64,000 nucleotides of DNA from Comamonadaceae bacterium (GCA_947447985.1 CANFLX010000011.1:1-64000), one strand, 5' to 3'; counted from the stretch's first letter, positions 7,755-34,315 are shown. Numbers and translations: made by a program. The notes: generated from the letters alone by a model not told the origin.

Positions 7755-8330
7755 ATGGAAGCCCACGAAGCCTCAGAAATCATTGAAGAAAGCCACGGCG
7801 ATGGCAAAAATCGCACCGCACTGACCATTTCCATCCTGGCCATGGTGTTGGCGATTTCCAGTCTGGGGGGATCCAACGCGGGCAAAGACATCACGCAGGA
7901 GAACATCCTGGCGGCCAACAGCTACGCCTTCTACCAGGCCAAGTCGATCCGTCAAACCTCGCTCAAAATTGCGGCAACCGACTTGGAGTTGCAACTGCTA
8001 CGCGAACCCGGCATGCCTGCTGCCGCCAAAGAGGCGATGCAAAAGAAGATCGAGGACTACAAAAAGACCATCGATCGCTACGAGTCTGAACCCGAAACCA
8101 AAGAAGGCAAAAAGGAGTTGCTGGTCACGGCCAAAGAGCATGAGGCCGTGCGCGACCGTGCCAGCCGCCAGGACCCGTGGTTCGACTACGCCGAAGGCAT
8201 GTTGCAAATTGCCATCGTGCTGCTGTCGGTATCCATCGTTGCAGGACTGCCCATCCTGTATTGGGCGGGCACGGTCTTGGGCGCTTTGGGCGCCGTGTCT
8301 GCGGCCAACGGCTTTTTCCTGTTTTATTGA
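7755..8330 (+). CDS. DUF4337 domain protein
   Basis: A 191-residue protein that I recognise as a DUF4337 family member, a group of unknown function. An acidic N-terminus (to about residue 20) is followed by a hydrophobic helix (ALTISILAMVLAISSL). A charged coiled-coil-like middle (about 65-130) follows, and two C-terminal membrane helices end in GFFLFY. It is probably an inner-membrane protein with a soluble helical domain. A GGAGA sequence precedes ATG 7755. Its last seven bases overlap the 3' end of the convergent hydantoinase-like gene. Confidence 0.8.
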   Translation: MEAHEASEIIEESHGDGKNRTALTISILAMVLAISSLGGSNAGKDITQENILAANSYAFYQAKSIRQTSLKIAATDLELQLLREPGMPAAAKEAMQKKIEDYKKTIDRYESEPETKEGKKELLVTAKEHEAVRDRASRQDPWFDYAEGMLQIAIVLLSVSIVAGLPILYWAGTVLGALGAVSAANGFFLFY

Positions 8331-10366
8331 GTCGAAGCGGCCTTGCGCCGCGGCGCGCCACTGGCGGTGGCGGTGACCACCGCTTCAAAAAACACATTGC
8401 CATCAATGTCGTTGTCCACGCTGTTGTTGCGCTGCGTGAACACCACGTCGGCGGTCTGCGCGCCTGCCGCCAGAGCGCGGGCCAGTGCTTCGTCCCCCGC
8501 CAGCTGCTGGGCGTGTGCCACTGCCGACGGCAGATCGCCAAAATCCTGCGGCCCCTGGGCGGTGAAGACCTTGAAAACGCCGCGCGCGGGTTGGGTGAGC
8601 GTGATGTGCACCCGCTGCGACACCTGCCCCAGCACTGCACCGACCGCGTTGGCCACTTCGGCATGGGGCGGCAATTGCAAACCCACACCCAGAGCCTGCG
8701 CGACCGCAGGGTAGTAGCTCGTGGCCGGGGCACCCACGCCCACCAGGGGCATGCTCGGAGAAAACTGCAGTTGAAACACCGCGGAGGACCCAGCCTGTGC
8801 GGTCTGCGCGCCGCTTTTGGCCATGGTGGTCAACAGCGCGGCCACTTTGCCTGCGGAGGTTTCATTCATCTGGCCTGCGTCGTTCAGGCCGGCTTCAATC
8901 AGCTTCTGGCAAATCGTGTCCACGACCTTGGCCACCACGTCCTGGGCCGGGCCCATAGCGTCACCCGTTTTCCAGGTGCCCAGGCCGTACATGTGGCGCA
9001 TTTGGCGCGCCCAAATGCGCGCAGCCAAGGTCGCACCCGCCGTGCTCCAGTGGCTGGACAGGCCCAGCACATGGGCCGCGTCGCTGGGCGTAAAACCGGT
9101 GTAAATCGCCAAGCCTTTGCGCTCTAAGCGAGCAATGGCGCGGGCCAGGGCGCGGTTCTCCATGTTGGCCCACTCGAGATCGACCGGGCCCTTGGCCATG
9201 GTTTCCCAGGCAAACAACTCATCGTCGTTGAGCCGTGCCAACAGTGCCGCATCGGCATGCAGGCGCTGGGCAAAGCGCATCTGGCTGGCGTGTGGCGTCT
9301 CATGTTGCTGGCGCTCCAGCGCCGCCAAAATATGCGGATGCTGGTGGGCCAGCAAGCTCAAGGGCACAACGCGGCGCGGACCGATGGTGAGGCCCTCGCC
9401 CCCGTGCAGGCGTACTTCGCTGTCGCCACCCAAGCCCACGGCATAGACCTTGACCGCCTCCACCATGGGCCGCCAGTTGCCGACCATGGCGCCATCAAAA
9501 CTCAACTCCGGCAGGCCATTGCGTACCACCGCGATGTCGGTGGTGGTACCGCCCATGTCGGCCACCACGGCGTTGTGCAGGCCGCTCAAGGCACAGGCGC
9601 CCAGCACGCTGGCTGCGGGCCCTGAGAGCACGGTGTTGACCGGGCGGCGCAAAGCGCTGGCCACATTGATCAAGGAGCCGTCGCCCTGCACCACCATCAG
9701 CGGTGCGTCAATCGCGCGCGCGGCCAGGGTGCGCTGCACCGAATCGATCAGCGCCTTCACATGAAAAATCATGCGGGCGTTCAAGGCCGCTGTCATCGCG
9801 CGACGTGGTGCACCCAGGCTGGAGGCCAGTTCATGGCCGCAGGTCACGGGCACGTCGCACATCTCTTGCACCCACGCACGCAGCTGCACTTCATGCGCCG
9901 GATTGCGCACGCCAAAGGTGGCTGAGATGGCAAACGCAGACACCCGGGCCATGTGCTGTGCAATGGCGGCGCGCGAAGCGGTTTCGTCCAAGGCTTCGGT
10001 GGCAATGCCGCCCGCGTCGTGTCCGCCTGGCAAACGCACAATGGCGTCGCTGCCCAGCAAATCGATCAAACCACTGCTTTTGACCTGCAGCGCGTCATAG
10101 CCCGCCAGCAACACGCACACCGGTGAGCCCTTGCCCTCCACCACCGAGTTGGTGGTGAGCGTGGTGGACAGGGACACCAGCGTGACCTGTTGCAGCAGGT
10201 CCTGCGGCAGCTGGTCCAAGGCGCTGGCGATGCCTTGGGCCAGGTCAAAGCGTGTGGTCAGGCTTTTGGCAGATGCCGTGACACGGCGCTCGCCATCGAG
10301 CAGCACCACGTCGGTGAACGTGCCGCCCGTGTCGATTCCTAGCGAATAGGCCACGCGGTCAGGCAC
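8324..10366 (-). CDS. Hydantoinase/oxoprolinase (HyuA) family ASKHA protein
   Basis: A 680-residue protein with the N-terminal phosphate-binding motif DTGGTFTDVVLLDG and the second ASKHA motif DMGGTTTDIAVV, as in the ATP-dependent hydantoinase A / 5-oxoprolinase family. Known members open cyclic amides, including N-methylhydantoin, or carboxylate ketones, usually with a HyuB partner. No hyuB is present here. It is the last gene of the minus-strand run sdaA-soxBDAG, 15 bases after soxG, starting at GTG 10366. The context suggests a role in N-methyl amino acid metabolism, for example forming sarcosine precursors, or an ATP-dependent activator of another protein. The substrate is not evident. 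Confidence 0.82.
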   Translation of the reverse strand: MPDRVAYSLGIDTGGTFTDVVLLDGERRVTASAKSLTTRFDLAQGIASALDQLPQDLLQQVTLVSLSTTLTTNSVVEGKGSPVCVLLAGYDALQVKSSGLIDLLGSDAIVRLPGGHDAGGIATEALDETASRAAIAQHMARVSAFAISATFGVRNPAHEVQLRAWVQEMCDVPVTCGHELASSLGAPRRAMTAALNARMIFHVKALIDSVQRTLAARAIDAPLMVVQGDGSLINVASALRRPVNTVLSGPAASVLGACALSGLHNAVVADMGGTTTDIAVVRNGLPELSFDGAMVGNWRPMVEAVKVYAVGLGGDSEVRLHGGEGLTIGPRRVVPLSLLAHQHPHILAALERQQHETPHASQMRFAQRLHADAALLARLNDDELFAWETMAKGPVDLEWANMENRALARAIARLERKGLAIYTGFTPSDAAHVLGLSSHWSTAGATLAARIWARQMRHMYGLGTWKTGDAMGPAQDVVAKVVDTICQKLIEAGLNDAGQMNETSAGKVAALLTTMAKSGAQTAQAGSSAVFQLQFSPSMPLVGVGAPATSYYPAVAQALGVGLQLPPHAEVANAVGAVLGQVSQRVHITLTQPARGVFKVFTAQGPQDFGDLPSAVAHAQQLAGDEALARALAAGAQTADVVFTQRNNSVDNDIDGNVFFEAVVTATASGAPRRKAASTQ

Positions 10367-10381
10367 GCAGAGCCGTCCGAC

Positions 10382-10990
10382 TCACGCGGCACCGGCTTCG
10401 CACAGCCAGCGGAACAGGTAGTCGGCAAAACTGCGGCGCACGGTCAGCTCGAAATGGCTGCCCGGCGCCAGGCACAGAACCGTCGCTCCTGCTTTGGCTA
10501 CGTGGCTTTGCGCCACAGCCCCTGCTGCAAAGGCCCGGGGATGCAAATCCAAGGGGCAGCCGCGCGCCAGCAAAGCAGCGGCGCCCGCGCCCTGCACGGT
10601 CATCGTGGCAAAGCCATGGCCCACCGGCACCAGCGATACGTGCTGGCCGGCCAAGGCGGTGCGCAGAGCGCCTTCCATGGCCTCCAGCGGACCCGCGCTT
10701 TGGTAATTTGACCCCGCCGGTGGCAGTTTGAGCACCCACTCGTCAGGGCCCAGCCACAGCAGTTGACCCGCTGCGCCCAGCGTGGCGGTGTTGGCTTGCA
10801 GGGGCAAGGCCAGACTGGTCACGCGCTGCACCACTTCCACAAAATGGGGGTCGGCGGCGTTGCCGCGGATGTTGAGCATGTCAACAAAAGCGACTTCGCC
10901 CAGCGTGACGCTAGCGCCATCCACCGACAAAACGCGCTGGCCCAGGCCGGTCACTGCGGCCAATGGGCTTTCCAGAACAACATTAGACAT
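10382..10990 (-). CDS. soxG: Sarcosine oxidase gamma subunit
   Basis: Small subunit (202 residues) of heterotetrameric sarcosine oxidase. It resembles the SoxG family: an N-terminal PLAAVTG segment, the central LWLGPDEWVL motif and a C-terminal YLFRWL region. ATG 10990 overlaps the end of soxA by eight bases, indicating coupled translation. Gamma subunits are structural and share the fold of aminomethyltransferase domains. Its place as fourth gene of soxB-D-A-G is the standard order. Confidence 0.9.
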   Translation of the reverse strand: MSNVVLESPLAAVTGLGQRVLSVDGASVTLGEVAFVDMLNIRGNAADPHFVEVVQRVTSLALPLQANTATLGAAGQLLWLGPDEWVLKLPPAGSNYQSAGPLEAMEGALRTALAGQHVSLVPVGHGFATMTVQGAGAAALLARGCPLDLHPRAFAAGAVAQSHVAKAGATVLCLAPGSHFELTVRRSFADYLFRWLCEAGAA

Positions 10991-13985
10991 GGTGACGCTT
11001 TCCTTCGGGATCGTAAAAGACCGGGCTGCAAATGGTGGCGGCAACGATGCGGCCATCCACCAGCGGGATGTAAACCTTCTCGCCCATGCGGCTCAAACCA
11101 CCGCGCACCACAGCCATGGCAATCGGGCGCTGAACGGTCGGGCTGAAGTAGCTCGAGGTGACATGCCCGACCATGGGGACAGGCAGCGCAGGCAAGGTCG
11201 CACTGCGGGTGATTTGCGAACCTTCGGGCAAGACCGTCACGGCGTCATCGGTGAGCAAGCCCACCAATTGCTTGCGATCGCTGGCCACGGTATCGCTGCG
11301 GCTCAGAGACCGTCGGCCCAAAAAGTCTTTGGTCTTGGACACCATGGCGCCCATACCGAGGTCGTAGGGTGTGATCGAGCCATCGGTTTCCTGGCCAACG
11401 ATGATGTAGCCCTTCTCGGCTCGCAACACGTGCATGGTTTCGGTGCCGTAGGGCGTGATATCGAACTCGGCGCCTGCGGCCATCAGCTCGCGCCACACAT
11501 GGGCGCCGGTGTGGGAAGGCACATTGATCTCGAACGAGAGTTCACCAGAGAAGCTGATGCGCATGATGCGCGCCCGCACACCCGCCACGGTGCCTTCGCG
11601 GTAGCTCATGAAAGGAAACGCTTGCGGCGACAGATCCACATCGCTGCAGAGCTTTTGCACCACAGCGCGGCTCTTGGGACCTACCACGGCAAAGGTGGAC
11701 CACTGCTCGGTGACCGTGGTCATGAACACCTTCATGTCGGGCCACTCGGTTTGCACCCAGCGCTCCATCCAGCCCAGCACGCGTGCGGCGCCGCCGGTGG
11801 TGGTGGTCATCAAAAAGCGGTCTTCGGCCAGGCGCACGGTCACGCCGTCGTCGAACACCATGCCGTTTTCATCGAGCATCAAACCGTAGCGGGCCTTGCC
11901 GATTTCGAGCTTGAGCCACGGGTTGGTGTACATCCAGTTCAGCAGCTTGGCAGCGTCCGGCCCTTGGATGTCGATCTTGCCCAGCGTGGACGCATCCATG
12001 ATGCCCACGCCATTGCGCACGGCCAGCACCTCGCGGTTCACCGCCTGGTGCATGTCCTCACCCGCCTTGGGGAAGAACCAGGGGCGTTTCCACTGGCCCA
12101 CATCTTCAAAGGGCGCACCCGATGCCAGGTGGTGGCGGTGCGCACTGGTGTGGCGTGCGGGGTCAAACAGGTCGCCGCGCTCCAGTCCGGCAAAGGTACC
12201 GAAAGTAATGGGCACGTAGTTGGGACGGAAGGTGGTGGTGCCGACTTTGTCGATCGGCTTGTTCAAAGCGCGCGCAGCCAAGGCCATGCCATTGATATTG
12301 CCCAGCTTGCCCTGGTCGGTACCAAAGCCCATGGCGGTGTAGCGCTTGATGTGCTCGATCGACTCAAAGCCTTCGCGCACCGCCAGTTCGATGTCGCTGG
12401 CGCCCACGTCGTTTTGGTAGTCGATGAAGGCCTTGGCACGGCGCGACACCGGCTCACCGGTCTCGGCAATCCAAAAGGCCGCGATCGGCTCTTGCTGCGG
12501 CTCGGTGACATTGAAGGTCTGCGCGCTGGCTGCAAAACCTGTGGCGCTGGCAGCCTGTGCCCCTGCCTGGCTGGCGTGGGCCAAGGTCTGCGCCAGGCCG
12601 AAGTCGGCAGCGCAGGCGCCCACGCTCATCTGCTTGGCCATCGGTGCGCCGGGCTGGAAAGAGCAGGTCGCGTCGTTCCACACGGCTTTACCGCCGGAGT
12701 GGGAATACAGGTGGATGGCAGGGTTCCAGCCGCCGGCCATGCCCAGGGCGTCGCAGGCCAGCACACGGCGGCCACCCGTCGCACGGTCGCCCACCATTTG
12801 GCACACGGTCACCGAGCTGACGGCCACGCTGCCGTCGGCCTGCAGCGGCACATGGCCGCGCAGCACGGTGACACCGGCGTCCTGGGCTTCTTGCACCAGG
12901 CTGCCCATGTGCTGGCTCTCGGGGCGGGTGTCTACCACGGTAACGCTAGCACCCGCGCCCTTCAAGGCCAAGGCGTCGGCATAGGCGCTGTCGTTGTTGG
13001 TCAAGAGCACCAGGTTTTTGCCCACCAGCACGCCATAGAGCTGCAAGTAGTCGGCCATGGCCGAAGACAGCATCACACCCGGCAGGTCGTTGTTGCCAAA
13101 CACCATGGGGCGCTCGTGTGCACCCGTGGCCAGCACCACCTGGCCGGCCCGCACGCGCCACAGGCGTTCGCGGAAACCGCTGCGCTGGGCCAAGGGCAGG
13201 TGGTCGCTCAAGGATTCACGGATCGTGACAAAGTTGTGGTCGTGGTAACCAAACACCACACCGCGCTGAATGATGCGCACCTCGGGGTAAGAGGCAAGCT
13301 CGGCCTGTGCGGCTTGCACCCAGGCCGAGGCCGACAGGCCGTCGATCGTGCCTTGAATCCGGTGCGCGCTGCCACCGAGCACGGGTCCGAGTTCGGCCAG
13401 GATCACCCGCGCACCGCTGCGTGCTGCGGCCAGGGCTGCGGCCAATCCGGCCACACCGCCACCGGCCACCAGCACGTCGCAATGCACGTTCTGGTGCACA
13501 TAGCGGGCATCGTCTTCCACCTCGGGGGCAGCACCCAGGCCACCGGCCTTGCGGATAAAGCGTTCGTAAAACATCCAGGCCTTGGCCGGCCACATGAATG
13601 TTTTGTAATAAAAGCCCGCCGGAAACAAAGGCGTGCCCCAGCGGTTCGGGCTGAGCAAGCGGCTCAGCAGATTGGGCCAGCCATTGACGCTTTCGGCCTG
13701 CAAATGGGCGTACAGCTCCACCTCTGGCATCTTGGCATTGGGAATGGTGTGGCTGCCGGACTCGAGCTGCACCAGTGCGGAGGGCTCTTCAATGCCCGAC
13801 GTCACCAGGCCGCGCGGGCGGTGGTATTTCCAGGAGCGGGAGAACAGGCTCTCGCCTGCGGCCAACAAGGCAGAGGCCAGGGTGTCGCCTGCAAAGCCCT
13901 GAAAACTGCGGCCATTGAACTGAAACTGCAGCGGCTTGGAGCGGTCAATGCGCTCGCCGCGTGCGGGGATACGACGTGCGCTCAC
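10983..13985 (-). CDS. soxA: Sarcosine oxidase alpha subunit
   Basis: Large subunit (1000 residues). It has an N-terminal ferredoxin-like region, a dinucleotide-binding domain with VAGGGVAGLAAALAAARSGA (about residue 170), a pyridine-nucleotide-oxidoreductase-like middle and a C-terminal aminomethyltransferase (GcvT-like) domain from about residue 600. The enzyme oxidises sarcosine to glycine with O2 and transfers the methyl-derived carbon to tetrahydrofolate as 5,10-methylene-THF; the alpha subunit carries the NAD and folate sites. It starts at GTG 13985, overlapping the soxD stop by four bases. Confidence 0.95.
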   Translation of the reverse strand: MSARRIPARGERIDRSKPLQFQFNGRSFQGFAGDTLASALLAAGESLFSRSWKYHRPRGLVTSGIEEPSALVQLESGSHTIPNAKMPEVELYAHLQAESVNGWPNLLSRLLSPNRWGTPLFPAGFYYKTFMWPAKAWMFYERFIRKAGGLGAAPEVEDDARYVHQNVHCDVLVAGGGVAGLAAALAAARSGARVILAELGPVLGGSAHRIQGTIDGLSASAWVQAAQAELASYPEVRIIQRGVVFGYHDHNFVTIRESLSDHLPLAQRSGFRERLWRVRAGQVVLATGAHERPMVFGNNDLPGVMLSSAMADYLQLYGVLVGKNLVLLTNNDSAYADALALKGAGASVTVVDTRPESQHMGSLVQEAQDAGVTVLRGHVPLQADGSVAVSSVTVCQMVGDRATGGRRVLACDALGMAGGWNPAIHLYSHSGGKAVWNDATCSFQPGAPMAKQMSVGACAADFGLAQTLAHASQAGAQAASATGFAASAQTFNVTEPQQEPIAAFWIAETGEPVSRRAKAFIDYQNDVGASDIELAVREGFESIEHIKRYTAMGFGTDQGKLGNINGMALAARALNKPIDKVGTTTFRPNYVPITFGTFAGLERGDLFDPARHTSAHRHHLASGAPFEDVGQWKRPWFFPKAGEDMHQAVNREVLAVRNGVGIMDASTLGKIDIQGPDAAKLLNWMYTNPWLKLEIGKARYGLMLDENGMVFDDGVTVRLAEDRFLMTTTTGGAARVLGWMERWVQTEWPDMKVFMTTVTEQWSTFAVVGPKSRAVVQKLCSDVDLSPQAFPFMSYREGTVAGVRARIMRISFSGELSFEINVPSHTGAHVWRELMAAGAEFDITPYGTETMHVLRAEKGYIIVGQETDGSITPYDLGMGAMVSKTKDFLGRRSLSRSDTVASDRKQLVGLLTDDAVTVLPEGSQITRSATLPALPVPMVGHVTSSYFSPTVQRPIAMAVVRGGLSRMGEKVYIPLVDGRIVAATICSPVFYDPEGKRHHV

Positions 13986-14281
13986 TGGGCACCTCCTGCG
14001 GGGGCTGTGGTGTCCACCGGTGCTTCACCGGGCTTGTAAAACTGGGTGAAGGTGTAGCTCACGGTGTGGCGTTCGGCATTGAACCAGCGACGGCAGCCCG
14101 ACGCGTGCAGCCACTGTTCACGGTGCAAGCCCTTGGGGTTTTTGCGCATGAACAGGTAGTCACCCCACTGCTCGTCAGTCAGGGCATCGGTATCGAGTGG
14201 GCGGGCGATGTGTGCCTCGCCGCCGCAGGTGAATTCACTTTCGGCGCGGGGACCGCACCAGGGGCAGGTAATTTGTAGCAT
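13982..14281 (-). CDS. soxD: Sarcosine oxidase delta subunit
   Basis: A 99-residue zinc-binding subunit of heterotetrameric sarcosine oxidase. The N-terminal CPWC motif (Cys6, Cys9) with a further Cys at 19 and the SGCRRW region supplies candidate zinc ligands; GGEAHIARP is typical of the family. It sits between soxB (25 bases upstream) and soxA (four-base overlap), the canonical order. Confidence 0.93.
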   Translation of the reverse strand: MLQITCPWCGPRAESEFTCGGEAHIARPLDTDALTDEQWGDYLFMRKNPKGLHREQWLHASGCRRWFNAERHTVSYTFTQFYKPGEAPVDTTAPAGGAQ

Positions 14282-14305
14282 CTTGAAGTGTGTGTGAGGT
14301 CGTGT

Positions 14306-15556
14306 TCAGTGTGCGACGCCTGCGGCACCGTGCTCGTCGATCAGGTGGCCGGTGTTGAAGCGGTTGAGCTCGAACGCCGCATTGAGTGCGTGCGGCCGGT
14401 CTTGCGCAATCGTGTGCGCCATGACCCAGCCCGAACCTGGCGTGGCCTTGAAGCCGCCGGTGCCCCATCCGCAGTTGAAGTACAAGCCCTTGATATGGGT
14501 TTTGGAGATGATGGGGCAGGCGTCGGGCGCGACATCGACAATGCCGCCCCACTGCCGGTTCATGCGCACGCGGCGGAAGATGGGGAACAACTCGCAAATC
14601 GCTTGCAAGGTGTGCTCAATCACAGGGAAAGAGCCGCGCTGGCCGTAGCCCACATAGGAGTCAATGCCCGCGCCGATCACCAGATCGCCCTTGTCGGACT
14701 GGCTGGCATAGGCATGGATGGCGTTGGACATGACCACCGTGTGCAAAATCGGCTTCATGGGCTCAGAGACCAGCGCCTGCAAGGGGTGGCTCTCCAAGGG
14801 CAGGCGAATGCCCGCCATGTCGGCAATCACGGTGCTGTGGCCTGCGGCGACCACGCCAATTTTTTTGCTCTTGATGGTGCCGCGCGTTGTCTCTATGCCC
14901 ACAACCTGGTCACCCTCGCGCTGCACGCCGATCACTTCGCAGTTTTGAATAATGTCCACGCCCAGCTTGTCCGCCGCACGGGCGAAACCCCAGGCAATCG
15001 CGTCATGGCGTGCGACGCCGGCACGCGGTTGGAAGGACGCGCCCATGACCGGGTAACGCAGGCTGTTGCTGGTGTTCATGATGGGCACCATGGCCTTGAT
15101 CTCTTGGGGGCTGAGCACCACGCCGTCCACACCATTGAGGCGGTTGGCATTGACGCGGCGATGGATGTCGCGCATGTCTTGCAGCGAGTGCCCCACGTTC
15201 ATCACGCCACGCTGGCTGAACATGGTGTTGTAGTTCAGGTCCTGCGACAGGCCTTCCCACAATTGCAAGGCTTTTTCATACAAGTGGGTGGCATCGTCCC
15301 ACAGGTAGTTGGAGCGCACGATGGTGGTGTTGCGCGCGGTGTTACCGCCGCCCAACCAGCCGCGCTCGACCACCGCAATATTGCGCATGCCGTGCTCTTT
15401 GGCCAGGTAGTAGGCCGTGGCCAGGCCGTGGCCGCCGCCGCCGACGATGATGGCGTCGTAGCTGGCTTTGGGCGCGGGGCTGCGCCATTGTTTTTGCCAG
15501 TCCTCGTGGTAGGACATGGCGTTGCGTGCAAGCGCAAAAATGGAAAAGTGACTCAC
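14306..15556 (-). CDS. soxB: Sarcosine oxidase beta subunit
   Basis: FAD/FMN subunit (416 residues) that performs the sarcosine dehydrogenation. The Rossmann motif [17 protein letters not shown] is followed by [19 protein letters not shown]. His184 in the ARHDAIAWG segment matches the position of the covalently bound FMN in known SoxB proteins (from memory). The C-terminal [16 protein letters not shown] motif is complete. GTG 15556 is the likely start because the first ~15 residues resemble other SoxB N-termini. It heads the soxBDAG operon, 68 bases after sdaA. Confidence 0.95.
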
Positions 15557-20566: not shown

Positions 20567-20579
20567 ACCCGTGTCTTTC

Positions 20580-21413: not shown

Positions 21414-21425
21414 GGTCACGGCTCC

Positions 21426-24125: not shown

Positions 24126-24392
24126 TTTTGAAAATCTCCAATCCAAGCAGATAAATAAAACAGTTTCCTGACCACCGTGCCTGAAAGATGCGCGGAAGCC
24201 CGGGTTCGGAGTGCAATTTCATTTGCGTCCTGCCACCATAGTAATGCAATAAATTGGCGGTCTCAAGGCGAACGTATTGGCATATTCCCTTAGAAAAACC
24301 GGCTTTTTCACCCTGCAGGGCAATTTTTGAAATTGATTGCTTCGCCATGGGGCGCAAGCCGTGAAGGACAGTCGCGCCGGCCCGCCGATGCC
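24126..24392. promoter_or_regulatory. Intergenic region upstream of the family 5 ABC transporter
   Basis: 267 bases between the regulator stop and the binding-protein start. It should hold the transporter's minus-strand promoter. Visible structure: a perfect palindrome CCCTGCAGGG (24311-24320) next to AT-rich runs, and an AAAAACCGG/CCGGCTTTTT-like palindrome at about 24294-24308 that could end the regulator transcript. I could not place a convincing -35/-10 pair. Confidence 0.4.
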
Positions 24393-25340: not shown

Positions 25341-25370
25341 GGCTGCGCCAGCGCCTGCCGCAGAGCATAT

Positions 25371-26165: not shown

Positions 26166-28275
26166 GGGGATCTCCTTGCAAGCGAATCAGGGCATCCACC
26201 GCCAGCACGCCGCGGGGCATGACCAGCACCGGATTCACGTCCAGTTCCAGCAGCGCGTCGGCGTGGTGCTCGGCGTAGCGGGCCACGGCCATGAAGGCAT
26301 CGACCAGCGCGTCCACATCGCCCGCAGGCCGGCCACGAAAGCCCTGCAGCAGTGGCCAGATCGTGAGTGACTCCAGCGCCAAGCGAACCTCCTGGCGCTG
26401 CACAGGCAGCAAGAGCGTGCAGGCGTCTTGCAGCAGCTCCACCAACACGCCGCCCGCGCCCACCGTGAGCGACAAGCCGAACTGCGCATCACGCTGCACG
26501 CCGACAATGATTTCGGCTACGACGCCGTGCGCCATTTGCTCGACCAAAAACAGGTCTGACAAGCCGGCCATCTTGTCCAGCGCGGACTGCACTTGTGCGG
26601 CAGTGGCCAGATTCAGATGCACCGCCCCTGCTTCGGTTTTGTGTGCCAGATGCTCAGACACGGCTTTGAGCACGACGGGGTAGCCGATGGCCCCGGCAGC
26701 GGCGAGCACCTCGCCAGCAGCTACCACGCGGCCCTGGGGCACGGGCAAACCAAAGGCCGCCAAAGCGCGTTTGGCGCTCGCCTCGTCCAGCGTGCGTGCC
26801 TGTCCAGCCCGCAGCGCTTGCACCGGCTGCAATGGCAAGCGCTGGGCTTGGGTTTGCGCAGCGGCTCCGATGCGGGCGGCGTGCGCAACGGCGTCCAGGC
26901 AATCGGGCAAGCCCTGCATGGGTGCAATGCCGCGGGCCATCAGACTGTGTGCTGCGTCTTCGGGCAAATCCTCGGGCAGGCTGGCCACCACCGTGGCAGC
27001 CTTGGGGCCCGATGCGGCGCCAGCGTGTGCGGCCGCCACAAAAGCGTCCACCGTGGTGCCCCAGCTGTCGGCACTGCAGCGGTCCAGGCGTGGGTAGTCC
27101 AGCACCAACAGGTGGGCGTCAAACTGGCAGTCCATCAGCGCTGAAAAACATTCGGTCTGGGCCGCCAGATGGCCCCAGATGTAGGTGTGGTAATCCAGCG
27201 GATTGGCCACCGTGACTTTGTCGCCCAGCACCGCGCTCAAGCGATGTTGGGCCGCAGGGGGAATGGCGGGCATATCCAAGCCGCGCGGCTGCGCCAGATC
27301 GGCCACCAGCGAGGCCTCGCCGCCCGAGCAGCTGGCCGAAATAATGCGCCTGCCGCCCAAGGACCCGTGCACATGCAAGAACTTGCAGGTCTCGATCAAA
27401 CCCGCCGGGTCGCGCACCCGGGCCACACCGCAGCGGTCAAACAAGGCGTCGTACAAAGCATCGGGCCCGGCCAGCGAGCTGGTGTGGCTCATGGCCGTTT
27501 GGGCGCCCAGCGTGGACGATCCCGCCTTGAGCGCGACCAAGGGCACGCCCTGGCGCAGTGCTTTGAGCGCCACGCGCGAAAACGCGGCCACATCGTCCAA
27601 ACCTTCAATGTGCAGGCCGATCACGCTCACGCGCGGGTCGGCCAGGAGCGCATCAACCAAGGCTTCCATGCTGTTGCCGGCTTTGTTGCCCACGGTAATC
27701 AAATAGGCCAGCGGCAATGCACGCCGCTGCATGGTCAGGTTCAGGCCGATGTTGCCGCTTTGCGTGACCAGCGCCACGCCGCGCTCCACCCGCTGGCCCC
27801 CGTGCTGGTCAGGCCAGAGCGCCACACCGTCCAGATAATTCAGCATGCCGTAGCAGTTGGGCCCGAGCAGTGCCATGTTGCCGGCCTGCTGCACCAACTG
27901 CTTCTGCAAGGCCTGGCCCTGAGCCCCCACTTCGGCAAAGCCCGAGGCATAGCAAATGGCGCCGCCTGCGCCGCGCACGGCCAACTGGCCCACGATGTCC
28001 ACGGTCGCCTCCCGCGGCACCGCCACGAAGCTGGCGTCCGGCGCTTGCGGCAGCGAGGCAACGTCGGGATAGCAGGCGATGCCTTCGACCTCTTTGCGGG
28101 TCGGGTGCACCGGCCACAGCGCACCGGCATAGCCGAGCTTGCGGCATTGGCGAATCGCCTCAGCGGCGGCATTGCCACCAAACACTGCAATGTGGCGTGG
28201 CGAGAACAGCCGCTGCAGTTGCGCGCGAGCAACGCTGTCTTGCGCTTCAAGGGCTGACATCGACGCCAGGCTCAT
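26158..28275 (-). CDS. Acetate-CoA ligase (ADP-forming) family acyl-CoA synthetase
   Basis: A 705-residue fused NDP-forming acyl-CoA synthetase. It has an N-terminal CoA-binding domain (from about residue 20, SPRHIAVFGG), succinyl-CoA-synthetase-alpha-like domains with GPNCYGMLN, and a C-terminal ATP-grasp domain (from about 490) containing GYPVVLKAVSEHLAHKTEAG. ATG 28275 overlaps the acyl-CoA dehydrogenase stop (ATGA), so translation is coupled; an ATG at 28260 is also in frame. It probably activates a carboxylate as a CoA thioester for the adjacent dehydrogenase and hydratase. In this context gamma-butyrobetaine or crotonobetaine is the likely substrate, which would make it an ADP-forming alternative to CaiC. 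Confidence 0.88.
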   Translation of the reverse strand: MSLASMSALEAQDSVARAQLQRLFSPRHIAVFGGNAAAEAIRQCRKLGYAGALWPVHPTRKEVEGIACYPDVASLPQAPDASFVAVPREATVDIVGQLAVRGAGGAICYASGFAEVGAQGQALQKQLVQQAGNMALLGPNCYGMLNYLDGVALWPDQHGGQRVERGVALVTQSGNIGLNLTMQRRALPLAYLITVGNKAGNSMEALVDALLADPRVSVIGLHIEGLDDVAAFSRVALKALRQGVPLVALKAGSSTLGAQTAMSHTSSLAGPDALYDALFDRCGVARVRDPAGLIETCKFLHVHGSLGGRRIISASCSGGEASLVADLAQPRGLDMPAIPPAAQHRLSAVLGDKVTVANPLDYHTYIWGHLAAQTECFSALMDCQFDAHLLVLDYPRLDRCSADSWGTTVDAFVAAAHAGAASGPKAATVVASLPEDLPEDAAHSLMARGIAPMQGLPDCLDAVAHAARIGAAAQTQAQRLPLQPVQALRAGQARTLDEASAKRALAAFGLPVPQGRVVAAGEVLAAAGAIGYPVVLKAVSEHLAHKTEAGAVHLNLATAAQVQSALDKMAGLSDLFLVEQMAHGVVAEIIVGVQRDAQFGLSLTVGAGGVLVELLQDACTLLLPVQRQEVRLALESLTIWPLLQGFRGRPAGDVDALVDAFMAVARYAEHHADALLELDVNPVLVMPRGVLAVDALIRLQGDPHD

Positions 28276-29444
28276 GCCCCGTGCACGCGCAGCATGGCGC
28301 GGGAAATGATGTGGCGTTGGATTTCGCTGGTGCCATCCCAAATGCGTTCCACCCGGGCGTCGCGCCAGTAGCGCTCAATGGGCAGCTGGTTCATCAAGCC
28401 CATGCCACCAAAAATTTGAAGCGCGTTGTCGGTGACCCGCGCCAGTGCCTCGGAGGCAAACAACTTGGCCATGGCGGCATCCGAGTCGGTCATGGTGCCT
28501 TGGTCGCACTTCCAGGCGGCTTGGAGTGTGAGCAGTTCGGCGGCGGCCAGTTCGGTGGCCATGTCGGCGAGCTTGAAACCGGTGCCTTGAAACTTGCCGA
28601 TGGGCTGGCCAAACTGCTTGCGCGTGGCCGCCCATTCGGTGGCCATCTCCATCACCCGCTGGCCCCGGCCCACGCTGGTCGCCGCCACGGTGAGGCGGGT
28701 CGCACCCAGCCACTGGCCCATCAAATCAAAGCCTGCCCCTTCCTCGCCCAGGCGCTTGTAAGCAGGCACACGGCAGTCGGTGAAAAACAATTCGCACTGG
28801 TGGTAGCCCCGGTGCGATACGCAGGCCGGGCCCCGGCGCACGGTCAAGCCCGGCGAGTTCAGGTCCACCAGAAAACCGGTGATTTTTTTCTTCGGGCCAT
28901 GCTTGGTGTCCTCGACCCCGGTGGCGGCAAACAGCACCACAAAGTCGCTCATGTCGGCGTGGCTGATGAAGTGCTTGGTGCCGTTGATGCGGTAGTCGGC
29001 GTTCTCGCCCGTGCCGTCGCGGGTGGCGCGGGTTTGCATGCCGCGCACGTCGGAGCCGGCGTTGGGCTCGGTCATGGCCAGGCAGTCGTGGCGCTCGCCA
29101 CGGATCGTTGGCAAGAGGTATTCCTCAATCTGCGCCCCTTCGCAGGCCCGCAAGATGTTGCTGGGGCGCGCCACCAGCATTTGCAAGCCGTAGGACGCGC
29201 GGCCCAGCTCGCGCTCCATGAGCGTGATGGTGAAGTTGTCCAAGCCGCCGCCGCCCAGTTCGGCCGGCATATTGGCGGCGTACAAGCCGACTTCGATGGC
29301 CTTGGCCTGGATGGAGGCGGCCAGGTCGGGCACGATGGCGTCGGTGCGCTCCACCTCGTCTTCAAAGGGGTACAGCTCTTTTTCAACAAAGGCGCGCACC
29401 GTGTCGACGATCATGGTCTGTTCGCTGCTGAGTTGGAAATGCAT
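28272..29444 (-). CDS. Acyl-CoA dehydrogenase (CaiA-like role)
   Basis: A 390-residue FAD-dependent acyl-CoA dehydrogenase. The signatures LAMTEPNAGSDVRGMQT and the C-terminal QIFGGMGLMNQLPIERYWRDAR are present, with the terminal GTSEIQRHIISR motif. It would oxidise the CoA thioester made by the neighbouring ligase to the enoyl-CoA used by the hydratase. With carnitine genes in the same operon, gamma-butyrobetainyl-CoA is the favoured substrate, by analogy to CaiA. An electron-transfer flavoprotein is needed and is not encoded here. Confidence 0.9.
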   Translation of the reverse strand: MHFQLSSEQTMIVDTVRAFVEKELYPFEDEVERTDAIVPDLAASIQAKAIEVGLYAANMPAELGGGGLDNFTITLMERELGRASYGLQMLVARPSNILRACEGAQIEEYLLPTIRGERHDCLAMTEPNAGSDVRGMQTRATRDGTGENADYRINGTKHFISHADMSDFVVLFAATGVEDTKHGPKKKITGFLVDLNSPGLTVRRGPACVSHRGYHQCELFFTDCRVPAYKRLGEEGAGFDLMGQWLGATRLTVAATSVGRGQRVMEMATEWAATRKQFGQPIGKFQGTGFKLADMATELAAAELLTLQAAWKCDQGTMTDSDAAMAKLFASEALARVTDNALQIFGGMGLMNQLPIERYWRDARVERIWDGTSEIQRHIISRAMLRVHGA

Positions 29445-29476
29445 GGTGGTGGCTTTCAGAAAATGCGGGGTGATGG

Positions 29477-30046
29477 TCAGGCCGTTTTGCGGCGTATGCC
29501 CATGGGCTTGCCCACCTGGGGCGGCAGGGGCAGGCTGGCGTGGGCTGCTGCAACGGCTTGCACCCGTGCGCGCAGGTCACCAGGCATGGGGGCAGCACGG
29601 CCTTGCTTCATATCCACGTGCACCAGCATTTGCTCCGCCGTGGCCAGCAAATCGCCGCTGCTGCCGTGGTACATGGCGTGAAAAATATGCATGCGCTTGT
29701 CGTCGGCATCGAGCAGCTGCAGCGTCAAGCGCAAAGGCTCGCCTTCGGCCACTTCCTGCACGTTGTAGATGTGCGTCTCCACGGTATAGAAGGAATACCC
29801 CCCTTCATCGCGGTAGGACTCGTCAATACCGATCATGCGGAAGTAGGCGTCCGAGTTGTCGCCAAACACCAGCAGGTAGCAGGACTCGCTCATGTGGCCG
29901 TTGTAGTCCACCCACTCGGGCAGCACCACCGGGCGGTACAGGCACAAAGGCGCGGCAATGGGCGCGTTCGGGTCCCACGGTGGCGCGGGAGTGCCTTCAA
30001 GCGGCGTGCTCAGGCCGTGGGATTTGGAAGATGAGGGTGCATTCAT
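29477..30046 (-). CDS. 4HBT-fold thioesterase, possible carnitinyl-CoA hydrolase
   Basis: A 189-residue hot-dog-fold thioesterase with the active-site region LPEWVDYNGHMSES (Asp and His conserved) and the HVDMKQGR strand near the C-terminus. It is clearly related to the second thioesterase in this operon (31192-31689), which has [16 protein letters not shown] 30046 is preferred to TTG 30052. The proline-rich first ~25 residues are probably flexible. Since CdhC-type activity can be assigned to the other copy, this one may release L-carnitine from carnitinyl-CoA, joining the acyl-CoA branch to carnitine dehydrogenase. That role is inference. Confidence 0.8.
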   Translation of the reverse strand: MNAPSSSKSHGLSTPLEGTPAPPWDPNAPIAAPLCLYRPVVLPEWVDYNGHMSESCYLLVFGDNSDAYFRMIGIDESYRDEGGYSFYTVETHIYNVQEVAEGEPLRLTLQLLDADDKRMHIFHAMYHGSSGDLLATAEQMLVHVDMKQGRAAPMPGDLRARVQAVAAAHASLPLPPQVGKPMGIRRKTA

Positions 30047-30066
30047 AGGCAAGCGTGATCTCGCGT

Positions 30067-31182
30067 TCAGGACGGGGCCAGCAACACGATTTTTCCAACA
30101 AAATTCTTCGCTTCAAAAGCCTGCTGCGCCAAGCCGATCTCGCGCAGCGCAAAGGTCTGCGCCACCACCGGGGCAATTTCGCCGCGCTCAATGTAGCCCA
30201 CCAACTGGTCAAAAATCCGGTCTTCTTGAAAGGTGCAACCCAACAGCGTCAGGTCTTTGAGGTAGAGGGTGCGCAAGTCCAAATCCACCACCGGCCCGGC
30301 AATCGCGCCTGCACTGGCGTAGCGCCCGCCACGGCACAGCACCTCCAGCAGCGCAGGCCACTGTGGGCCGCCCACCAGGTCGATGACCACATCAATCGAT
30401 TCGTTGCCCAAGGCCTGCACCGCGTTGACATCGCGCGGCAAGCACTCGTGAGCGCCCAGCGCTCGCAAAGCTTGGTGTTTGTCAGCCGCGGCCAATGCCA
30501 CCACATGGGCACCCCGACGGCGGGCCAATTGCACCGCAGCGCTGCCCACACCGCCCGACGCACCTGTGACCAGCACACGGCTGCCCGCAGACACCCCCGC
30601 ACGATCCACCAGGTTTTCAGCGGTCGAATAAGCGCAAGGAAAGGAGGCCAGTTCCGCGTCACTGAGCCCGCTGCGCACTGCCACGGCAGCCGTCGCAGGC
30701 ACGCAGGTGTACTGCGCAAAACCCCCATCGCACTCCGAGCCAAAGTACTGGCAGGCGTAAGGCTGCGTGCTGCGATGATCGCGCAGCACCGGGCGCACCA
30801 ACACGCGCTGCCCGATGCGGGCGGCGTCCACCCCCGACCCCACGGCGACGATCGAGCCGCAGCAATCGGCGCCCTGGATGCGCGGAAACACCAATGGCGT
30901 GCCGCCCCAGCTCGGGTCCGGGTCACGCGTGCTGTCCACCACGGCAGCAGCACCGTCGGTGGCGCTTGCACTGGTTTTGGAATACCACCCGACGCGGGTA
31001 TTGATGTCGGTGTTGTTCACTGCACTGGCCGCCACGCGGATCAGCACTTCGCCCGCGCCAGGGCGCGGCACGGGCAGGTCTTCGCGGTAGTGCAGCACCT
31101 CCGGGCCACCGAAGCCGGTCAGCACCACGCCACACATGGTGGCGGGCAATGCAGCGGCGGTGGCGGTGGCGGCAGTGGTCAT
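30067..31182 (-). CDS. MDR-superfamily oxidoreductase, quinone-oxidoreductase type
   Basis: A 371-residue medium-chain dehydrogenase/reductase. The N-terminal GroES-like domain (to about 150) leads into a Rossmann domain with VLVTGASGGVGSAAVQLARRRGA. The catalytic zinc motif GHE of classical alcohol dehydrogenases is replaced (QGADCCGSI) and the upstream Cys is absent, so it looks zinc-independent like quinone or enoyl reductases. It starts at ATG 31182, nine bases after the CdhC-type thioesterase. Its job in the carnitine operon is unclear; reduction of an unsaturated CoA ester or an aldehyde are possibilities. Confidence 0.8.
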   Translation of the reverse strand: MTTAATATAAALPATMCGVVLTGFGGPEVLHYREDLPVPRPGAGEVLIRVAASAVNNTDINTRVGWYSKTSASATDGAAAVVDSTRDPDPSWGGTPLVFPRIQGADCCGSIVAVGSGVDAARIGQRVLVRPVLRDHRSTQPYACQYFGSECDGGFAQYTCVPATAAVAVRSGLSDAELASFPCAYSTAENLVDRAGVSAGSRVLVTGASGGVGSAAVQLARRRGAHVVALAAADKHQALRALGAHECLPRDVNAVQALGNESIDVVIDLVGGPQWPALLEVLCRGGRYASAGAIAGPVVDLDLRTLYLKDLTLLGCTFQEDRIFDQLVGYIERGEIAPVVAQTFALREIGLAQQAFEAKNFVGKIVLLAPS

Positions 31183-31191
31183 GGTCAAAGG

Positions 31192-31689
31192 CTATTTGGG
31201 CTGGGGCAAGGCCATGACCCGCCCGATCTGCGCCGGGCGTGGCAGGCTTGCGTGCGCTGCTGCCAGGGGCTGCAGATAGGCCGCCACAGCCGGGGCAAAG
31301 ACCGCAGAACGCGGCCCAACCATATCGACATTGAGCAGCATTTGCTCGGTCAGCGCCATGCACTCGGTGCCACCTTGCGCGTACAGGCTCAGCGCCACGT
31401 GCAGCCGCTTGGCATCCAACCCGAGCAACTGCAGACGCACTTCGACGGCGGCGCCCTGCTTGACCTCGTGCAGATAATTCACATGCGCTTCCAAAGTGAA
31501 CCAAGAGTGCCCGGTGGCTTTGCGCCCGGCTTCATCCAAACCGGCGAGATCCATCAGCGCGTCCACTGCGCTGCTGAACAGCACCATGTAGTAGCCGTCG
31601 CGCAGGTGGCCGTTGAAGTCCACCCACTCGGGGCCAATGGTGCAACGGTAAACCACCGGCAGCGCTGCCGCGCTCGTGGCTTCAGGCAT
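31192..31689 (-). CDS. cdhC: Betainyl-CoA thioesterase
   Basis: A 165-residue hot-dog thioesterase with the active-site segment [18 protein letters not shown] 31689 overlaps the carnitine dehydrogenase stop, and the BKACE gene is next upstream. This reproduces the cdhA/cdhB/cdhC association of Pseudomonas, where CdhC hydrolyses betainyl-CoA to glycine betaine. In some bacteria this domain is fused to carnitine dehydrogenase, which further supports the link. Assignment rests on family and operon position; the other thioesterase in the operon could share or swap roles. Confidence 0.82.
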
Positions 31690-32647
31690 CGGGCGCAATT
31701 CCGTGCTTGAGCTTGGTCGCCTTGATGGCCGCTTGCACCGCCATCAGACAGTCGTCACGGTAGCGTTCCCAGTCGGCAATGCTACGGCTGCCCAGTTGCT
31801 CCACGCTGCCTTCGGCCACGGCATCGAGCAGCGAATCGGTCAACTCCGGCGCCTCCAGCTTGGTCCAGGGCAGCTTGAGCGCAGGACCGAACTGGGCCAT
31901 GAAGTGGCGCATGCCCGCATCGCCACCCGCCAGTGTGTAAATCAAAAAGCTGCCCATGAATGACCAGCGCATGCCCGCACCAAAGCGGATGGCGTCGTCA
32001 ATTTCACCGGTCGTGGCCACGCCGTCGTTGACCAGGTGCAAAGACTCGCGCCACATGGCTTCGAGCAGGCGGTCGGCGATAAAGCCAGGTACCTCTTTGC
32101 GCACGTGCAGCGGGCGCATGCCCAAACTGCGGTAGACCTGCATGGCCGCTTGCACCGCCTCAGGCGCGGTGTTCACGCCGCCCACCACTTCAACCAATGG
32201 CAGCAAGTACACCGGGTTGAACGGGTGTCCAACCACACAGCGCTCGGGGTGCTTGGCATGCGCATAAAAGTCGGTCGGCAGCAAGCCGGAGGTGCTCGAT
32301 CCAATCAAGACATCAGGGCGCGCTGCGGCGGTGATTTCGGCATGCAGTGAGAGCTTCAGGTCCTGGCGCTCAGGCGCGCTCTCTTGGATGAAATCGGCAT
32401 GGGCGACGCACTCTTGCACCGTGGCCACAAATTTCAGCCGGTCTTGCGATGCACCGGGCGCCAGGCCCTGTGCTTGCAATGCGCCCCAGGCCTTGGCCGT
32501 GCGCTCGCGCAGCGCGGCCTCAGCGCCGGGTGCCGGGTCCCAGGCGATCACGTCCAGGCCGTGGGCCAGCGCGCGGGCAACCCAGCCGCTGCCGATCACG
32601 CCGGTGCCCAGGGCTGCAAAGGTTTTGATGTCGGTGACAAAGTTCAT
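31682..32647 (-). CDS. cdhA: L-carnitine 3-dehydrogenase
   Basis: A 321-residue enzyme of the 3-hydroxyacyl-CoA dehydrogenase superfamily, oxidising L-carnitine to 3-dehydrocarnitine with NAD+. The Rossmann motif [14 protein letters not shown] is near the N-terminus, and the region [18 protein letters not shown] with the catalytic His and the downstream [12 protein letters not shown] segment match carnitine dehydrogenases rather than fatty acid enzymes. It is flanked by BKACE (upstream, 40 bases) and thioesterase (overlapping), the expected carnitine set. Confidence 0.9.
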
Positions 32648-32687
32648 GCTGTTCTTTCGCTGTGGTGAATAGGCGGGCAGCGCGCGA

Positions 32688-33575
32688 TCAGCCGCGCTTT
32701 TTCAGGCCCATTTTTTCGCGGCCTTGCGCCGGGGTCATGGGCGTACCGCCCAGGCGGGTGATGATTTCCACTACACGCTCGGTGAGCGAGCCATTGGTGG
32801 CCAAGACGCCTTTGTCCAGCCACAGGTTGTCCTCCAGACCCACGCGCACATTGCCGCCCAGCAGCATGGCCTGTGCCGCCATGGGCATTTGGGTGCGGCC
32901 AATACCAAAGCCCGACCACACCACGCCTGGTGGCAGGTTGTCCACCATGGCTTTCATGGTGGTGGTGTCGGCCGGTGCGCCCCACGGAATGCCCAGGCAC
33001 AGTTGGAACAGCGGGTTGTCCAGCAGGCCCTCTTTCATCATCTGTTTGGCAAACCAGAGGTGGCCGGTGTCAAAAATTTCGAGTTCCGCTTTCACGCCGA
33101 GTTCGGTAATGCGCTTGGCACCGGCGCGCAAGGCGGCCGGGGTGGAAACATAAATCGTGTCGCCATCGCCAAAGTTGAGCGTGCCGCAGTCCAGCGTGCA
33201 GATTTCGGGCAGCATTTGCTCCACATGGATCAGACGGGCCATGGGGCCAATCAGGTCGGTGGCGGGGCCGAAAGCCATGGGGTTTTCGCCAGGACCGATG
33301 TCCAGGTCACCGCCCATGCCGGCAGTGAGGTTGACGATGATGTCCACGCCGCTGTCGCGGATGCGGTCCATCACCTCGGCATAAAGCGCCGGGTCGCGGC
33401 TGAACTTGCCGGTCTGCGGGTTGCGCACATGGCAGTGCACCACGGTCGCTCCGGCCTTGGCGGCTTCCACCGCAGCGGCGGCGATTTGTGCTGGCGTGAC
33501 CGGCACATGGGGGCTTTTGGCGGCGGTGTCGCCCGCACCCGTGAGTGCGCAAGTGATGATGACGTTGGGGTTCAT
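32688..33575 (-). CDS. cdhB: 3-Dehydrocarnitine cleavage enzyme (BKACE family)
   Basis: A 295-residue zinc-dependent beta-keto acid cleavage enzyme. The metal-binding HCHVRN motif, the N-terminal [12 protein letters not shown] segment and [15 protein letters not shown] are present. It condenses 3-dehydrocarnitine with acetyl-CoA to yield betainyl-CoA and acetoacetate. The substrate assignment comes from the adjacent carnitine dehydrogenase and thioesterase. Its start overlaps the class II aldolase stop (ATGA). Confidence 0.92.
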
Positions 33576-34315
33576 GTGGTGTACTCCGGTTCTTCGTGGT
33601 CAAGGATTAGTTTCAGGGCTGCGAGGTGCAGATCGCAGTAGTCGGTGGGGTAATCGTTCCATTGTGCGCAGGCCAGCGCGGCCAGAGGCTCGGGAATCAG
33701 TGCCAGCGGCCGCCCGGTGGACAGGGCCAGCACCTGCAGCTTGGCGGCGCGCTCCAAGTAATACAGCGCGTCGAGCGCCTGCGCTACGGTGGCGCCCACC
33801 ACGATCACGCCGTGGTTGCCCATGAACAGCACGTTTTTGCCTGCGCCCAGCAAGCCCGCAACGCGCTGGCCCTCGGCGGCATCCAAGGCCATGCCCGCGT
33901 AATCGCGGTCATAGGCAATGCGGCCATGAAAACGACAGGCGTTTTGGTCGAGCGCCATCCATTCGAAGTCTTGCAGGCAGCACAAGGTGGTGGCGTAGTG
34001 CATGTGGGTGTGCAGAATGCAGCGCGCCTGCGGCAGGCGCTGATGCAATTCGGCGTGCAGGTTCCAGGCGGTGGGGTCGGGTGTTTTGCCACCTTCTAGT
34101 GCCCCAGGCCGCTGGCTGTCCACCAGCAAGAGGTCACTGGCCCGGATGCGCGAGAAATGGCTGCCTACGGGGTTGAGCAGGAAGCGTGCGCCGTCATCCG
34201 AGACCGCCACACTGAAGTGGTTGGCGATCGACTCGTGCATATCCCAGCGCGCAGCCCAGCGAAAGGCGGCGGCGAGATCGATGCGCGCTTGGGTCTCAAA
34301 AGGCGTGGCGGCCAT
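33572..34315 (-). CDS. Class II aldolase/adducin family protein
   Basis: A 247-residue protein of the class II aldolase/adducin fold. Metal-binding histidines are seen in [11 protein letters not shown], and the [11 protein letters not shown] motif is conserved. ATG 34315 is chosen because [20 protein letters not shown] resembles family N-termini. It is the first gene of the long minus-strand carnitine operon and is translationally coupled to cdhB. Related proteins cleave or epimerise sugar phosphates or decarboxylate; its role in carnitine use is unknown. Confidence 0.83.

Follow-up and report, generated by a model that had tools for sequence, protein, structure and literature searches.

Known systems and the locus under study

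The aerobic MtgBCD route of glycine betaine demethylation, published in 2025, serves as a precedent, based on growth and proteomics, for the pathway considered here. As described for Ruegeria pomeroyi, mutants showed that neither betaine use nor methionine synthesis proceeds without MtgC and MtgD, and the levels of two MttB proteins (MtgB1 and MtgB2), of CdhABC and of SdaA increase on these substrates (PMC12478193). The same account argues that Bmt of S. meliloti, there named a Bhmt, corresponds to the homocysteine module MtgE. The glycine betaine methyltransferase clusters of the anaerobes Desulfitobacterium hafniense and strain DCMF are also related systems (PMC9768040). For carnitine, a CdhABC pathway under CdhR/GbdR regulation is described in Pseudomonas (PMC5806209), and strain HK4 converts gamma-butyrobetaine to carnitine by a route resembling fatty acid degradation (PMC2131755). 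We analysed a gene block with homologues of many of these proteins in a 64,000-nucleotide stretch of a Comamonadaceae bacterium (GCA_947447985.1, CANFLX010000011.1:1-64000). This stretch, hereafter the window, comprises bases 1–64000 of one contig of a 2.85 Mb assembly with 86 contigs and 99.6% completeness. The closest relatives of its MttB and HyuA-like proteins come from Comamonadaceae and Rhodoferax metagenome-assembled genomes.

We consider it probable that the block is part of a multi-locus system catabolising carnitine, and presumably gamma-butyrobetaine, via betaine to pyruvate in this Comamonadaceae-type (Rhodoferax-like) bacterium, and that the family of its 680-residue HyuA-like ATPase (hyu680) is a recurrent accessory of MtgBCD. 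The sequence-only reading had proposed a single system running from carnitine or betaine to pyruvate; gene content, a conserved neighbourhood and an Azoarcus comparator give this proposal good support, but the genes are spread over at least three loci rather than forming one operon.

With the R. pomeroyi system, as described, the genome shares an MTTB-family MtgB, a separate corrinoid protein MtgC and pterin protein MtgD, RamA, DUF1638, MetF2, CdhABC-type genes, SdaA, an MtgE-type gene and the lack of a detectable MetH-type fusion. In contrast to that account, mtgB lies here beside sdaA-soxBDAG and the carnitine genes, whereas mtgCD-ramA share a different contig with betBA and the MtgE-type gene; furthermore, the genome is of Comamonadaceae type, and the main text of PMC12478193 mentions neither Betaproteobacteria nor freshwater. 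The anaerobic clusters have in common with our genome an MttB-type methyltransferase I, a corrinoid protein and a tetrahydrofolate methyltransferase, but they belong to anaerobes in which sarcosine is reduced rather than oxidised. CdhA, a beta-keto acid cleavage enzyme (BKACE), a thioesterase and a GlxA/GbdR-type regulator are shared with the Pseudomonas pathway as described, from which the present system differs by additional acyl-CoA genes, an Opp-type importer and the absence of a detectable GbcAB in the genome (GbcB was not searched for separately).

Betaine to dimethylglycine

Gene families were called with Pfam and NCBIfam models, and NCBIfam cut-offs are given beside the bit scores. The mttB gene of the window (17321–18913, plus strand; PF06253, 778 bits), our mtgB candidate, would encode a non-pyrrolysine glycine betaine:corrinoid methyltransferase. 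In comparisons with PDB entries, its product scored 755 bits with 4yyc (listed as a putative trimethylamine methyltransferase), 422 with 2qne, 419 with 9yce and 118 with the pyrrolysine MttB 7xcl; 9yce is named glycine betaine methyltransferase MtgB, and 2qne is described as the same type of enzyme (PMC9842639). A leucine residue is aligned with the pyrrolysine position, as in 2qne, and there is no stop codon within the match. Judging from these scores and residues, the protein is nearer to MtgB than to pyrrolysine MttB and belongs with the non-pyrrolysine MttB superfamily.

Candidate partners were found on contig C4, in the order proV, proW, a GlxA-type regulator gene, purU, mtgC, DUF1638, metF2, mtgD, ramA, opuAC, betB and betA. 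The predicted MtgC is a separate corrinoid protein of 232 residues (PF02310, B12-binding, 94 bits; PF02607, B12-binding_2, 61 bits), grouped with mtgD, metF2, ramA and DUF1638 (PF00809, PF02219, PF14574/PF17651/PF17650 and PF07796; NF005719, 368 bits, cut-off 259). In the proposed mechanism, MttB, acting as MtgB, would convert betaine to dimethylglycine by methylating MtgC; MtgD would move the methyl group from MtgC to tetrahydrofolate, RamA and the DUF1638 protein would keep the cobalt reduced, and MetF2 would oxidise methyl-tetrahydrofolate. By analogy with the described system, the betaine-to-dimethylglycine step thus appears to be mostly accounted for. A third MttB-type gene, besides mttB and mttB2 (below), is present as pieces at two contig ends (C62, locus L105, 1–1310; C72, locus L106, 1–412).

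It had been claimed that two steps, from glycine betaine to dimethylglycine and from dimethylglycine to sarcosine, are without known enzymes and that GbcAB, BHMT and DgcAB genes are absent. Both statements hold within the block (DgcAB had no search of its own), but the genome has the MtgBCD genes and a PRK07534 protein on C4 and a dimethylglycine dehydrogenase (DMGDH)-type enzyme on C10. The absence of gbcA was borne out genome-wide, the only Ring_hydroxyl_A protein scoring 61 bits against a GbcA cut-off of 670 and having rhodanese, EamA and DNA polymerase genes as neighbours among the open reading frames (ORFs) scanned; no separate search was made for GbcB. The claimed gap in the pathway would therefore be mostly filled by a known, recently described system, and what is new is how the genes are arranged in the Comamonadaceae-type lineage and that the HyuA-like family is associated with mtgC.

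No MetH-type fusion was found. The genome contains only two Pterin_bind proteins, a 319-residue frame on C20 (presumably FolP) and MtgD, neither of them in frame with a B12 domain, and the longest B12 frame (1044 residues) resembles IcmF (887 bits over the first 595 positions). Because no pterin protein carries a B12 domain and this B12 frame is IcmF-like, the genome likely has a split methionine synthase, which the PRK07534 protein may serve.

Dimethylglycine to pyruvate

Three fusions of a flavin adenine dinucleotide (FAD) domain with GCV_T, of the DMGDH or dimethylglycine oxidase type, are encoded in the genome, on C10, C48 and C66. The C10 protein (DAO, FAO_M and GCV_T domains) gave 602 bits with 4p9s over 13–819 and 599 with the mitochondrial enzyme 5l46, versus 309 with dimethylglycine oxidase 1pj5. 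The C66 fusion is nearer to dimethylglycine oxidase (375 bits versus 242 for DMGDH), and the C48 fusion was compared with family libraries only. On C10, the DMGDH gene belongs to a single-strand set (locus L102, approximately 6226–15493) consisting of mttB2, DMGDH, soxB2 (53% identical to the window soxB), soxD2 (104 bits), soxA2 (1210 bits) and a gene in the place of soxG, which was weakly recognised (20 bits to GCV_T, below the cut-off) and did not match the window soxG. This set is possibly a complete betaine-to-glycine operon.

In the window, the sarcosine oxidase genes lie on the minus strand: soxB (beta, 14306–15556; PF01266, 224 bits), soxD (delta, 13982–14278, start approximate; PF04267, 129 bits), soxA (alpha, 10983–13985; PF17806, PF01571) and soxG (gamma, 10382–11056; PF04268, 77 bits). 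They are preceded by sdaA (15624–17027, ATG at 17027), the product of which is predicted to be the L-serine ammonia-lyase forming pyruvate from serine (TIGR00720, 690 bits, cut-off 345). According to this scheme, the C10 DMGDH would convert dimethylglycine to sarcosine, SoxBDAG would convert sarcosine to glycine, a putative GlyA would form serine from glycine and methylene-tetrahydrofolate, and SdaA would yield pyruvate. With GlyA set aside, homology supports the predicted steps from carnitine to pyruvate.

The HyuA-like ATPase family

The last gene after soxG, at the left end of the block, is hyu680 (8324–10366, minus strand; PF05378/PF01968), encoding a stand-alone HyuA-like ATPase of the ASKHA fold. 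Its AlphaFold model (mean confidence score, pLDDT, 86.9) has acetone carboxylase subunit B and caprolactamase as its nearest folds, with full-length matches to these proteins and to N-methylhydantoinase, and the phosphate loops of the HyuA-type ATPase fold are conserved. No HyuB partner was detected: there was no PF02538 (Hydantoinase_B) match in the genome, nor among the 20 neighbouring ORFs scanned. The protein is not of the RamA/RACo type either, since Pfam reported neither Fe-S nor RACo_C_ter domains and the 47 aligned rows contained no invariant cysteine.

The family was sought in 321 genomes of the class (hyu at E<=1e-80) and in 120 genomes of the bacterial family (hyu and mtgC at 1e-30). 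It was present in 13 of the 321 class genomes, and all 13 were among the 16 with mtgC; by comparison, it was found in none of 20 genomes with soxA and without mtgC. In the smaller sample, orthologues occurred in the same 4 of 120 genomes as mtgC: the raw lists had five genomes each, four of them shared, the extra ones being a hyu match over residues 8–319 only (G036) and a 41% mtgC match not counted as an orthologue (G061). In genome G112, both matches were partial. The hypergeometric probabilities of this co-occurrence are 1e-20 (class) and 1e-7 (family), uncorrected for kinship. Loci of Pseudomonas, Billgrantia and Denitromonas have orthologues with 62–68% identity near mttB or following ramA, and another such orthologue is found inside an Azoarcus island. 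In strain DCMF, the betaine cluster includes a 668-residue protein annotated as N-methylhydantoinase A, which is classed as Unknown, increases strongly on betaine (PMC9768040) and is likened to hyu680 by its annotation. PMC12478193 does not mention a HyuA-like gene (no occurrence of hydantoin, oxoprolinase or ASKHA).

Our working hypothesis is that hyu680, rather than being a hydantoinase, most probably uses ATP to assist the corrinoid or methyl-transfer step. A more specific proposal, to which we give somewhat less than an even chance, is that hyu680 and its family form an ATP-dependent part of B12-dependent betaine demethylation that had so far gone unassigned, present in aerobic Proteobacteria and, by annotation, some anaerobes, and needed for sustained MtgB-MtgC-MtgD turnover; they might, for instance, act with RamA to protect, load or reactivate the corrinoid protein.

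A second HyuA-like paralogue (40–42% identity) was observed at C1:27218–29206 (locus L142), beside S15 peptidase and DUF2126 genes. Copies of the C1 type (71–75%) are located 1–6 kb downstream of mttB in five Comamonadaceae-type loci (L008, L009, L017, L019 and L020). Genome G082 has a 72% relative of the C1 paralogue, and G112 has a second hyu copy. In locus L143 (genome G273), an ORF with MerR-type helix-turn-helix and B12-binding_2 domains (9380–11407) adjoins a hyu relative and possibly encodes a cobalamin-sensing regulator.

Gene neighbourhood in relatives and the Azoarcus island

We compared the surroundings of the 80 best MttB relatives out of at least 591. Of these loci, 22 are Comamonadaceae-type (L005–L025 and L069, grouped from record titles and identity) and 58 are others; loci with flanks that were too short are omitted from each count. 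The sdaA gene is divergently upstream of mttB in 14 of 15 Comamonadaceae-type loci and in none of 46 others, and sox genes are upstream of mttB in 9 of 10 and 4 of 42, respectively. By contrast, mtgC, mtgD or ramA was present in the fetched stretch in 0/17 Comamonadaceae-type loci and 37/54 others (flanks of at least 5 kb), the MttB relatives in these other loci being 73–83% identical to the window protein. Window-type MttB is therefore mostly associated with mtg genes outside the Comamonadaceae-type lineage and located beside sdaA-sox within it. The order hyu-soxG-A-D-B-sdaA/mttB recurs across the Comamonadaceae-type loci, and the window soxB is 89–98% identical to soxB of those that hold this gene. 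Locus L016 repeats the block from hyu through the acyl-CoA dehydrogenase gene, where the fetched stretch ends. Two loci titled Klebsiella pneumoniae and Candidatus Planktophila lacus (L076 and L053) contain 77–80% MttB relatives, and these titles may not fit the contigs.

The plasmid pAZKH of Azoarcus sp. KH32C carries an island of about 58 kb (144089–201766; L157 and L163) with folD, mttB, betAB, a hyu680 orthologue (62.8%), opuAC, ramA, mtgD, metF2, DUF1638, mtgC, purU, a GlxA regulator gene, proWV, electron transfer flavoprotein genes, a DMGDH-type FAD enzyme (40% identical to C10 DMGDH), folC, folB, soxGADB, sdaA and glyA. From its gene content, this would be a nearly complete betaine-to-pyruvate set. 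The shared genes (mttB, mtgC, DUF1638, metF2, mtgD, ramA, the hyu680 orthologue, the DMGDH-type gene, soxBDAG, sdaA and betAB) form a single plasmid island in Azoarcus, which differs from our genome in this respect, in the presence of glyA and a Rieske oxygenase gene, and in having no carnitine-annotated gene in the stretches read. The plasmid is typed as mobilizable, and the island closes with an annotated aromatic ring-hydroxylating dioxygenase and a hybrid-cluster oxidoreductase. A small protein of the methylene-tetrahydrofolate reductase C-terminal type (DUF5981) is encoded between DUF1638 and metF2 both in pAZKH (171707–172180) and in locus L139 of genome G193 (6082–6543).

Carnitine genes and organization of the block

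All eleven gene types named by the sequence-only reading were recovered in the block with Pfam or NCBIfam models, cdhB and cdhC by family only. That inventory had omitted the genes for the acyl-CoA dehydrogenase, the nucleoside diphosphate (NDP)-forming acyl-CoA ligase, the crotonase, the zinc-type alcohol dehydrogenase, the class-II aldolase and the HyuA-like ATPase. The overlapping starts and stops that it reported were seen (crotonase/ligase 8 bp, cdhC/aldolase 4 bp, soxD/soxA 4 bp), and the genes other than mttB are on the minus strand, but its picture of an essentially one-strand block gives way to one of about four transcription units, judged from strand and gaps alone. The block cannot be one operon, because mttB lies on the plus strand between the importer and sdaA-sox sets, divergent from sdaA and convergent with the importer genes; its ATG (17321) and the start of sdaA are some 290 bp apart.

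The first minus-strand set comprises, in transcription order, genes for a class-II aldolase/adducin-type protein (33572–34387, ATG at 34315; PF00596, 144 bits), a cdhC-type BKACE (32688–33575; PF05853, 322 bits, with solved BKACE-type relatives), the L-carnitine 3-dehydrogenase CdhA (31682–32647; NF005471, 618 bits, cut-off 414), a CdhB-like 4HBT thioesterase (31192–31698; PF13279), a zinc-type alcohol dehydrogenase (30067–31188; PF00107, PF08240; no NCBIfam model above its cut-off among the 25 listed of 44), another CdhB-like 4HBT thioesterase (29477–30052; PF13279), an acyl-CoA dehydrogenase (28272–29444; PF00441), an NDP-forming acyl-CoA ligase (26158–28341; PF13549, PF13607), a crotonobetainyl-CoA hydratase-like crotonase (25371–26165; best NCBIfam model NF002936, 364 bits, cut-off 500) and a GlxA/GbdR/CdhR-type AraC regulator (24393–25340; PF12833 and PF01965; best NCBIfam model GbdR, 327 bits, cut-off 480). 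The thioesterases match PRK07531, a fused carnitine dehydrogenase model, over its thioesterase half with 119 and 169 bits, respectively, below the cut-off of 592 for this model, and no NCBIfam model exceeded its cut-off for the cdhC candidate. CdhA and SdaA thus pass specific cut-offs, whereas CdhC, CdhB and the acyl-CoA genes are assigned from family and position. Carnitine would be converted to betaine by CdhA, for which the assignment is strong, together with the CdhC and CdhB candidates.

The ligase, acyl-CoA dehydrogenase and crotonase types are all present, none above a specific cut-off among the models listed; the acyl-CoA dehydrogenase scored 194 bits with the crotonobetainyl-CoA dehydrogenase model (cut-off 540), which was not its best model. 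The block likely holds an overlooked gamma-butyrobetaine branch, in which gamma-butyrobetaine or crotonobetaine would be converted to carnitine via ligase, acyl-CoA dehydrogenase, crotonase and thioesterase, resembling the route of strain HK4.

The second minus-strand set encodes the importer: a family-5 solute-binding protein (22557–24146; PF00496, 225 bits), two permeases (21426–22373; PF00528, PF19300; and 20580–21419; PF00528) and a double ATP-binding cassette (ABC) ATPase (18950–20668, start perhaps at 20566; two ABC_tran stretches). The ABC importer named earlier is thus present with all its parts, and its type is corrected to that of peptide (Opp) importers; the substrates are presumably taken up through it. 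A second Opp-type importer with a family-5 solute-binding protein is encoded on C62. The third set runs from sdaA through the sox genes to hyu680.

Alternative explanations

The window MttB might demethylate another quaternary amine, such as carnitine or gamma-butyrobetaine, with MttB2 of C10 acting on betaine. Eubacterium limosum MtcB and MtyB are described as MttB-type demethylases of other quaternary amines (PMC8604678), R. pomeroyi likewise induces two MttB proteins, the window gene has carnitine genes and an Opp-type importer as neighbours (importer genes also adjoin mttB in 8 of the 19 Comamonadaceae-type loci with sufficiently long flanks), and the mttB2-DMGDH-soxBDA set of C10 looks self-sufficient for betaine. 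However, the 73–83% relatives outside the lineage sit with mtgC, mtgD or ramA, cdhA was seen in only one of the 80 loci, and the window protein scores higher than MttB2 against solved MtgB (422 versus 363 bits), making this explanation unlikely in our view. It is very unlikely that the betaine step is instead performed by the PRK07534 'betaine--homocysteine S-methyltransferase' family protein, leaving MttB another purpose. That protein is encoded just after betA on C4 (locus L167, 13463–14578) and scores well above the cut-off (476 bits versus 338), but the S. meliloti member is argued to be without the betaine-binding residues, to share homology with MtgE and not to be required for betaine use if methionine is supplied (PMC12478193); as no MetH-type fusion was seen in the genome, the PRK07534 protein may have to provide the homocysteine module for a split methionine synthase.

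For hyu680, an ordinary ATP-dependent hydrolase of an N-methylhydantoin/creatinine or oxoproline route, feeding sarcosine and riding along with the betaine genes, would agree with the fold matches, with the terminal position of the gene in the sox operon and with the Creatinase_N/M24 or annotated Xaa-Pro peptidase genes near family members in three other records. The lack of Hydantoinase_B matches and the distribution of the family, which follows mtgC rather than soxA, argue against it, and we regard it as decidedly doubtful. Finally, we give hardly any credence to the idea that separate amine pathways with no shared role were brought together by chance or history. The block does comprise several transcription units, and sdaA, mttB, opp and acyl-CoA genes were found together in only 2 of the 80 loci (L016 and L069), many stretches being too short; nevertheless, the pathway steps join head to tail, and the clustering is not due to chance because the hyu-to-mttB order is kept in relatives.

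Several observations weigh against the proposed multi-locus system with its hyu680 accessory. The assembly, in 86 contigs, has 2.4% contamination, and mtgCD are on a contig other than that of mttB, so that the two are linked by the genome alone. As three MttB-type genes or pieces exist, the betaine-using MttB may be one other than that of the window. The C4 MtgC falls under both NCBIfam MtgC cut-offs (206 versus 370 and 175 versus 310), and none of the regulator, crotonase and acyl-CoA dehydrogenase reaches its equivalog cut-off. For the ATPase family, 3 of the 16 class genomes with mtgC have no member at the threshold used, and soxA is also present in all 13 genomes with a member. Of the members in the 12 other class genomes, only that of G383 (53%) is clearly orthologous; the rest (37–43%) are nearly as close to the second copy on C1, which itself has no mtg neighbour. 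The G193 copy, overlapping ramA by 4 bp, is closer to the C1 paralogue (45% versus 38%), so this overlap counts for the family only. Relatives of about 40% identity are away from mtg genes in four of five alphaproteobacterial stretches, the fifth being beside an MttB gene.

Implications

These results assign the aerobic MtgBCD route of betaine use to a Comamonadaceae-type lineage as well, in which it would be tied by position to the use of carnitine. Surveys relying only on GbcAB and BHMT may therefore miss carnitine and betaine turnover. Furthermore, the ATPase gene family presents a testable puzzle: it follows mtgC in two genome samples, and a similarly annotated protein rises on betaine in an anaerobe.

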